A DNA stretch of 64,000 nucleotides, from assembly GCA_902593235.1 (NCBI GenBank), contig CACJHS010000002.1, positions 1 through 64,000 of the forward strand, given 5' to 3'. The position numbers were made by a program, and so were the translations under genes. Source of the DNA: an uncultured Pelagibacteraceae bacterium (lineage in GTDB: Bacteria; Pseudomonadota; Alphaproteobacteria; Pelagibacterales; Pelagibacteraceae). This document shows positions 34,812-35,840 of this stretch, piece by piece; positions within the stretch are counted from its first letter, which is position 1, and every line of letters starts with the position of its first letter. The notes under the pieces are model-generated. The model was given only the letters and a program-made list of their open reading frames with translations. It did not search any database and had not been told where the DNA came from.

Positions 34812-35426
34812 TTAATATTGCTGTGTTATAACAATTATTCCAGCAATAATTACTAAAACACTCGCAGAAATTGTATTAATTGTTTTTGGATTTGCAGTGA
34901 TCCACTTAATTAATTTCTGTGCAAGCATTGCATAACCAATCAAAGATAAAAAATCTAAAACAATGTAAGTTGTAATTAAAATTACAAATTGTGCCAATAA
35001 ATTTGAATTAAAGTCAATAAATTGTGGAAATATAAAAGGAAAAAACATCCAAGCTTTAGGACTTGTTCCAGCAACTAAGAAACCATCTCGAAAAAATGAT
35101 AAGTTGCTTTTTTTTGTTTCACTTTCGCTTGAAATGGTTTTTGGACGTGATTTATAAATATCATAAGCAAGATATAAAATATAAATTACTCCTATCCATT
35201 TAAATATATTTAATATCGTTGAGTTCTCAGAAAAAAAAGATCCTATTACAAAAATTACTAAAGTTGCCTGTATAAAATTTGCTGTTACATCCCCTAACGC
35301 TGACCAAACACATTTTCCAACTCCATAATTCATTGAATACGAGATAATCACAACTCTTGGGGTTCCTGGTGTAATGAAAAGAAAAATTATTATCTGTAGA
35401 TAAAGAATGAAATCTAAGGGGAGCAT
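34812..35426 (-). CDS. LysE family translocator
   Basis: FITPGTPRVVIISYSMNYGVGKCVWSALGDVTANFIQ; six hydrophobic segments. Confidence 0.87.
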   Translation of the reverse strand: MLPLDFILYLQIIIFLFITPGTPRVVIISYSMNYGVGKCVWSALGDVTANFIQATLVIFVIGSFFSENSTILNIFKWIGVIYILYLAYDIYKSRPKTISSESETKKSNLSFFRDGFLVAGTSPKAWMFFPFIFPQFIDFNSNLLAQFVILITTYIVLDFLSLIGYAMLAQKLIKWITANPKTINTISASVLVIIAGIIVITQQY

Positions 35427-35481
35427 AAAAAAAGATAGTCCTTAAAAACCGGGAGCTAAAGATGGCTAAGAAGGACTATCT
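35427..35481 (-). terminator. Terminator-like inverted repeat directly upstream of lysE-family start codon
   Basis: Minus strand AGATAGTCCTT-27 nt-AAGGACTATCT followed by TTTTTT then the ATG; left arm 35433-35443, right arm 35471-35481. Confidence 0.5.
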
Positions 35482-35503
35482 AAGACATAATATCAGAGGC
35501 TAA
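35462..35503 (+). CDS. Candidate 13-aa leader-like peptide MAKKDYLRHNIRG upstream of TIGR03643 gene
   Basis: ATG GCT AAG AAG GAC TAT CTA AGA CAT AAT ATC AGA GGC TAA, preceded by GGGAG 7-11 nt upstream; overlaps the inverted repeat. Confidence 0.35.
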   Translation: MAKKDYLRHNIRG

Positions 35504-35543
35504 AAAAAATGCATTAAATATTTTTTTCAAATATAAAGGATTT

Positions 35544-35840
35544 ATGAAAAAAAAAGGTCACAGACCAGTTACTAGAGTCAAAAACCCAGAGCCCAAAATG
35601 GACGATCCGGATTGGATCATTTGGGCAGCCTGGGCAGATAGGATCACTTTCGAGGAAATTGAAAAAAAAACAGGAAAGAAAGAATCTGATGTAATTAAAA
35701 TTATGCGAAGATCTCTAAAACCATCATCTTTCAGGTTATGGAGAAAAAGAGTAAACCAAAAAAGTATAAAACATCGAAAAAAATTTGAATATTCTAGAAA
35801 AGAAATAGCTAGTAAAATTAAAAAAGGTGACTATTTATAG
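35544..35840 (+). CDS. TIGR03643/DUF2805 family protein
   Basis: DDPDWIIWAAWADRITFEEIEKKTGKKESDVIKIMRRSLKPSSFRLWRKRV. Confidence 0.88.
   Translation: MKKKGHRPVTRVKNPEPKMDDPDWIIWAAWADRITFEEIEKKTGKKESDVIKIMRRSLKPSSFRLWRKRVNQKSIKHRKKFEYSRKEIASKIKKGDYL

Follow-up and report, generated by a model that had tools for sequence, protein, structure and literature searches.

The hairpin that lies between the divergent lysE and TIGR03643 genes of this uncultured Pelagibacteraceae bacterium belongs to the RNA family RF01814 and, judging from comparisons among SAR11 genome sequences, is likely to be a single-target antisense sRNA that would block the ribosome-binding site (RBS) of a Lys/Arg-rich microprotein encoded beside carD and repress its synthesis. 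The element itself is already known; the proposed target and role are the new part. Our argument draws on the structure and strand of the hairpin, on an exact and near-exclusive complementarity between its loop and the start of the microprotein gene, on the co-variation of the two sites, and on a constraint on the RBS that is seen only where the sRNA exists. In the mechanism we propose, the small RNA would be transcribed from the minus strand under its own predicted extended -10 element, with transcription beginning near the first stem base, and its single hairpin would display the 13-nt loop AUCUUUAGCUCCC. This loop would pair with GGGAGCUAAA(G/A)AU(G), a stretch of the microprotein mRNA that comprises its Shine-Dalgarno sequence, spacer and start codon, so that the RBS would be hidden and translation initiation stopped without Hfq or ProQ.

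Locus, fold and family of the hairpin

The window (the whole stretch of DNA that was analysed, 64,000 nt) contains the following features at this locus, with minus-strand elements given as they would read in the RNA.

34812-35426, minus strand: LysE-family exporter gene (PF01810), the 3' neighbour of the hairpin in this genome
35416-35498, minus strand: match to Rfam RF01814 (rhtB sRNA) over model positions 1-83 of 83, 81.9 bits against a gathering score of 55
35427-35433, minus strand: U7 tract 3' of the hairpin, seen in the sequence, a possible intrinsic terminator that touches the lysE start codon
35433-35443, minus strand: 3' arm of the outer stem, AAGGACUAUCU, from the inverted repeat, with compensatory changes in relatives
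35447-35450, minus strand: 3' half of the inner 4-bp stem, GGUU, from the fold and pairing counts in relatives
35451-35463, minus strand: 13-nt apical loop AUCUUUAGCUCCC, fully complementary to GGGAGCUAAAGAU at the RBS and start of the microprotein mRNA, for which it is the putative antisense seed
35464-35467, minus strand: 5' half of the inner 4-bp stem, AGCC, partner of GGUU, from the fold and pairing counts in relatives
35471-35481, minus strand: 5' arm of the outer stem, AGAUAGUCCUU, from the inverted repeat
35487-35495, minus strand: predicted extended -10 promoter element TGATATTAT (TGnTATnnT), kept in relatives
35462-35503, plus strand: 13-codon reading frame MAKKDYLRHNIRG, judged to be no gene, as 47 of 115 relatives keep just 2-3 of its codons
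35544-35840, plus strand: TIGR03643/DUF2805 gene, the divergent neighbour, family match confirmed

An earlier note on this DNA had described a 117-nt gap between the divergent genes, a perfect 11-bp inverted repeat with 27 nt between its arms and, on the minus strand, a second arm running through a T-tract into the lysE ATG, and the coordinates and sequence bear out each of these. On the minus strand the hairpin is followed by U7 (35433-35427) and then directly by the lysE ATG (35426-35424), position 35433 being both the last base of the 3' arm and part of the U7 tract. The predicted minus-strand fold consists of the 11-bp outer stem, a 3/3 internal loop, the 4-bp AGCC/GGUU inner stem and the 13-nt apical loop, and its stability lies far beyond chance (minimum free energy -17.8 kcal/mol against a shuffle mean of -6.95, z -5.27, with 0 of 200 shuffles equally stable).

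The same note knew of no described attenuator for LysE or TIGR03643 genes with this layout. A cmscan check against Rfam shows that the element itself has been described, since the hairpin region matches RF01814 over the full model and has its features (a single hairpin, a bulge, a conserved loop and a covarying stem). The family is the 'rhtB element', a candidate RNA reported by Meyer et al. in 2009 from Ca. P. ubique and marine metagenome sequences, for which no target was named and the function was left open between regulation, termination and an inverted repeat at the DNA level (PMC2704228). The element described in 2009 occupies the same locus in Ca. P. ubique HTCC1062 and shares the hairpin, the bulge, the conserved loop and a partial U-tract (PMC2704228); what the present analysis adds is a link to one particular mRNA and a count of the various genes that adjoin the element. 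Literature searches on RF01814, expression of the rhtB sRNA, Hfq in SAR11 and Lys-rich SAR11 nucleoid proteins returned nothing relevant besides that paper. Elsewhere in the window, a glycine riboswitch aptamer (RF00504, 15147-15232, minus strand, 70.5 bits) and the 5' part of an alphaproteobacterial tmRNA (RF01849, 63888-64000, plus strand, cut by the window end) were also observed.

RF01814 was found in 229 of 397 genomes of the order, and all but one of these belong to the window's own genus. A match in another genus (genome G318, locus L057) proved to be an ordinary terminator hairpin and was rejected as a homologue. Five same-genus genomes without RF01814 were examined, of which four also had no TIGR03643 gene and the fifth had a partial match to it, so that the region is probably absent from these assemblies; the genomes used are incomplete drafts.

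Strand, promoter and neighbouring genes

The compensatory changes by which the earlier note proposed to judge the hairpin are present in the outer stem, where 115 aligned copies show TA/AT exchanges at inner positions and TA to CG changes; an additional CG to TA double change occurs in one further genome (G510). One-sided changes are informative about the strand. At stem positions 0-8 of the 115 copies, mismatches that read A.C on the plus strand (equivalent to G.U on the minus strand) outnumber G.T on the plus strand by 13 to 0, or 14 to 0 when position 9 is included, and 77 further distinct copies gave 13 and 0, respectively. Pooling the 115 and 77 loci over stem positions 0-9 yields 27 cases of A.C on the plus strand and 0 of G.T. 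The inner stem, moreover, pairs in 458 of 460 cells when read on the minus strand and in 348 of 460 on the plus strand. Together, the one-sided changes, all of them G.U on the minus strand, and the inner-stem counts argue that the RNA is the minus strand.

In 107 of 115 relatives, 6-8 nt separate the end of the predicted extended -10 element from the stem downstream of it, and transcription would therefore be expected to start at about the first stem base, which should place the 5' end of the RNA near 35480-35481. At the other end, no more than 45 of 115 relatives have a U-run of at least five after the hairpin (~60% of copies are without one); the 3' end is therefore uncertain, and the RNA may also form the 5' leader of the downstream gene's transcript. 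Where lysE is the neighbour, transcription might read through into it and leave the hairpin as a leader. Of the 115 copies, 86 adjoin a lysE match and 111 a DUF2805 match. At the loci without lysE, the genes 3' of the sRNA, named from their sequences and not by family search, include a ProC-like gene and genes for outer-membrane-like and SDR-like proteins, among others. As a separate observation, the junction 3' of the sRNA looks like a recombination or variable spot with repeated gene replacement, for example at six of the loci read.

These neighbourhoods bear on a cis-acting reading, in which the hairpin and U-tract, lying in the 5' part of the mRNA of lysE or another downstream gene, would control termination or ribosome access. 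Such a reading would account for the hairpin and U7 abutting the lysE ATG in the window and for lysE adjoining most copies, the predicted sRNA promoter might also drive lysE, and regulation or termination was among the roles proposed by Meyer et al. (PMC2704228). However, 29 of the 115 copies stand beside other genes with no lysE match in the fetched flank, most copies have no U-run of five or more, and the most conserved part of the element is the loop that matches a distant RBS, where cis-attenuation predicts neither the match nor the co-variation described below. We therefore regard a cis-acting leader as unlikely. Attenuation of lysE as a general function was rejected because the association with lysE is not constant, and the earlier note's suggestion of an attenuator touching lysE or TIGR03643 does not survive as the main role, given also the 4 copies with no DUF2805 match. 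Its other suggestion, the 3' end of a small RNA, agrees with the structured minus-strand RNA seen here (fold and strand-specific pairing).

A loop antisense to the start of a microprotein gene

Many genomes contain a weak second RF01814 match, and these matches turned out to lie on the strand complementary to the first bases of a gene and its RBS, GGGAGCTAAAGATG; the covariance model matches the target's opposite strand because the sRNA loop is antisense to it. The gene that begins there is unannotated, 21-35 codons long and Lys/Arg-rich, for example MPKKRKKAAKKTKKKAKKKAKKKAKKRRRK (example locus L156; relatives L121-L128 and L151-L220). It is convergent with carD and has a TTGACA promoter, a CGAATC...GATTCG inverted repeat in its presumed 5'UTR and a terminator that is strongly conserved (ACGCTTCTCAT...GAGAGGCGTTTTTTT). 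In the window's own genome (G000) the start of this microgene lies outside the window, at positions 4325-4344 of contig C43 on the reverse strand. The microgene is present in all 67 genomes in which the carD region is readable. One member, tested against Pfam and NCBIfam, gave no match; its KKAKKKA-type composition, which is not hydrophobic, suggests that the microprotein should bind DNA or RNA.

Two further observations concern the surroundings of this gene. The conserved 5'UTR repeat (for example at ~1550-1575 of locus L058, minus strand) comprises two GANTC sites, the alphaproteobacterial CcrM methylation motif, and in the sister genus the second of these reads GATTTG, with one GANTC lost. 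The SAR11 CarD homologue (locus L058, 445-1374, plus strand) has a long Lys-rich N-terminal extension similar in composition to the neighbouring microprotein.

The 13-nt loop is the exact complement of GGGAGCUAAAGAU, which runs from the Shine-Dalgarno sequence of the microgene through the spacer into its initiation codon, and across genomes it complements the Shine-Dalgarno-to-start region GGGAGCUAAA(G/A)AU. With targets also fetched independently through the neighbouring carD gene to avoid circularity, 14 of 14 positions pair in 62 of the 62 genomes that offered both sequences. The predicted loop-target duplex has a median energy of -26.5 kcal/mol, compared with -7.4 +/- 3.3 kcal/mol for the starts of 69 reading frames in the window (best, -15.3), and none of 2000 shuffled loops performed as well at the target as the real one. 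The sRNA site and the target site are either on separate contigs or at a large distance from each other.

Genome-wide specificity was assessed by pattern searches. A 20-nt pattern allowing up to 3 mismatches, run over 27 genomes, recovered the sRNA locus and the microgene start in nearly every genome; other sites were sporadic and at 3 mismatches, and a reversed control pattern found almost none. Among the recurrent sites in 21 genomes that matched 14 nt with at most 1 mismatch, no second target at a gene start was found, the sites lying inside reading frames or off starts. Several single matches were set aside, namely one occurrence at the apparent start of a ribosomal protein L22 gene in a single-cell genome (L399) and three matches on genome contigs (L340, L389 and L439) without hairpin arms. 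Unrelated viral contigs also use GGGAGCTAAA(G/A)ATGGCT as a normal RBS; they were rejected as carriers of the element since they have no hairpin, and the motif is therefore in part generic RBS sequence.

Complementarity and co-variation would show pairing and not which partner is regulated, and the relation might run in reverse, with the microgene mRNA acting as a sponge or decoy, or with pairing activating or stabilising that mRNA, while the principal target of the sRNA lies elsewhere; the CUCCC of the loop could, for instance, weakly bind other GGGAG Shine-Dalgarno sequences. Yet the pairing spans the Shine-Dalgarno sequence and the AUG, a classic site of repression, the search just described returned no other start site among the recurrent matches, and the microgene appears older or wider than the sRNA. 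We consider a reversed relation improbable and prefer repression of the microprotein as the probable direction.

Co-variation and constraint at the proposed target

Co-variation evidence comes from a single variable base, that just before the AUG of the target, which is either G or A. In the 67 genomes that provided both sites together with flanking genes for a tree, the sRNA/target base was G/G in 51 and A/A in 16, with 0 discordant. The best tree places 4 in-step changes at each site (3-4 in bootstraps), and the strongly supported branches alone force just one independent co-change, the backbone being weakly resolved. Over the genus, the A form was seen in 16 of 399 genomes, 13 of them at both sites and 3 with no partner in either form; by another tally, four A-state genomes yielded a single site. 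The RBS of the microgene is otherwise nearly invariant, the entropy of the 11 nt before the AUG averaging 0.05 bits per site, compared with 1.03 (DUF2805), 1.44 (lysE) and 1.02 (grx) bits per site in the start regions of the same genomes.

The sister genus offers a natural control. It carries the orthologous microgene beside carD, with the promoter type, inverted repeat and GGGAG of the window genus, and it had no RF01814 match when 397 genomes of the order were searched. Nor was a recurrent site antisense to its own microgene RBS found in that genus. The RBS spacer, which in the window genus is CTAAA(G/A), reads AAAAG (16), AATAAG (6), ATAAG (3), ATAAAG (2) or ATAAAA (1) in the sister genus and never CTAAAR. 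With varying spacers where the sRNA is absent, the spacer is therefore frozen only where the sRNA exists. The comparison fits either a gain of the sRNA in one SAR11 genus or its loss outside, with the microgene the older or the more widespread of the two. Sister-genus genomes read with the same lysE/DUF2805 arrangement have only ~25 nt between the genes and an empty site; as a side observation, at six such loci the two ATGs stand back to back ~25 nt apart, and the promoters must therefore overlap or the mRNAs be nearly leaderless.

Trans-encoded type I antitoxin RNAs such as IstR-1 (tisB) and OhsC (shoB) block tiny-protein genes encoded elsewhere, the toxins being hydrophobic membrane peptides. 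The arrangement proposed here resembles them in that a small RNA is encoded remote from the gene of a tiny protein, and a very small basic peptide, an RNA partner over its RBS and one-to-one pairing would suit a toxin-antitoxin-like pair in which the microprotein is toxic and the sRNA its trans-encoded antitoxin. In contrast to those toxins, however, the peptide is Lys/Arg-rich and not hydrophobic, the sister genus keeps the microgene without RF01814, and the gene sits in a conserved core context beside carD in every readable genome. A type I pair thus seems quite improbable, and plain repression of the microprotein is the reading we retain.

The plus strand of the window does contain, as the earlier note had observed, a GGGAG (35451-35455) 6 nt before the ATG of the 13-codon frame, which that note took for a leader whose translation could open the hairpin. 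In relatives the frame reads ATG GCT AGA TAG or ATG GCT TAG in 47 of 115 copies and extends to 13 codons in 26; the conservation of GGGAG...ATG stems from the antisense loop of the sRNA, which is its complement, and not from translation. A leader peptide or upstream reading frame of the TIGR03643 gene, and with it a leader-peptide attenuator, is rejected as highly improbable, in spite of the 13-codon examples, as the frame is unconserved, conservation stops shortly past the start codon, and the one-sided stem changes disrupt pairing on the plus strand and not on the minus.

Relation to known systems and implications

Pfam models (E 0.001) detected Hfq in 0 of 17 SAR11 genomes, with five control genomes positive, and Pfam models for ProQ were negative in 10 of 10 SAR11 genomes, with control genomes again positive. 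A long duplex formed independently of such chaperones is therefore plausible, and the class of Hfq-dependent sRNAs was rejected for this RNA on the same result for Hfq. By analogy, the nearest described relative in mechanism appears to be NfeR1/alpha-r14 of Rhizobiales (Sinorhizobium), an Hfq-independent trans-sRNA that carries anti-Shine-Dalgarno sequences in its hairpin loops and blocks translation starts (PMC10746234). NfeR1 is 123 nt long and reaches many targets via ~8-bp seeds in three loops of identical CCUCCUCCC (PMC10746234). As proposed here, the rhtB RNA shares with it the nature of an Hfq-independent alphaproteobacterial trans-sRNA, the anti-Shine-Dalgarno loop and the pairing at a translation start, whereas it has one hairpin, a 14-bp loop pairing that runs through the spacer and AUG, and apparently one target. 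Membership in alpha-r14/NfeR1 was rejected, because a single hairpin with the loop AUCUUUAGCUCCC replaces three with CCUCCUCCC and the RNA belongs to RF01814.

The microprotein finds its closest parallel in composition among the Lys-rich histone H1-like proteins of bacteria, of which Hc2 of Chlamydia is an example; these have a KKAKKKA-type composition and likely bind nucleic acids. The microprotein shares that composition and differs in size, at only 21-35 aa.

On balance, we lean towards the view that SAR11, with no detectable Hfq or ProQ, devotes a single-target sRNA to the translational control of a protamine-like microprotein, probably a coat for the chromosome or some other nucleic acid, RF01814 being the regulatory half of the pair. 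No function has been assigned to the RF01814 family since its description in 2009, although it occurs across the sea's most abundant heterotrophs. A specific target with evidence from sequence, co-variation and natural loss makes its function testable by a heterologous reporter, with no need of SAR11 genetics, and the way in which the target came to light indicates that a weak second covariance-model match can expose the target of an sRNA. If true, the finding would establish a trans-sRNA circuit in a streamlined genome that seems to be without the customary RNA chaperones, and it draws attention to a very strongly basic microprotein that these cells encode and that has escaped annotation.
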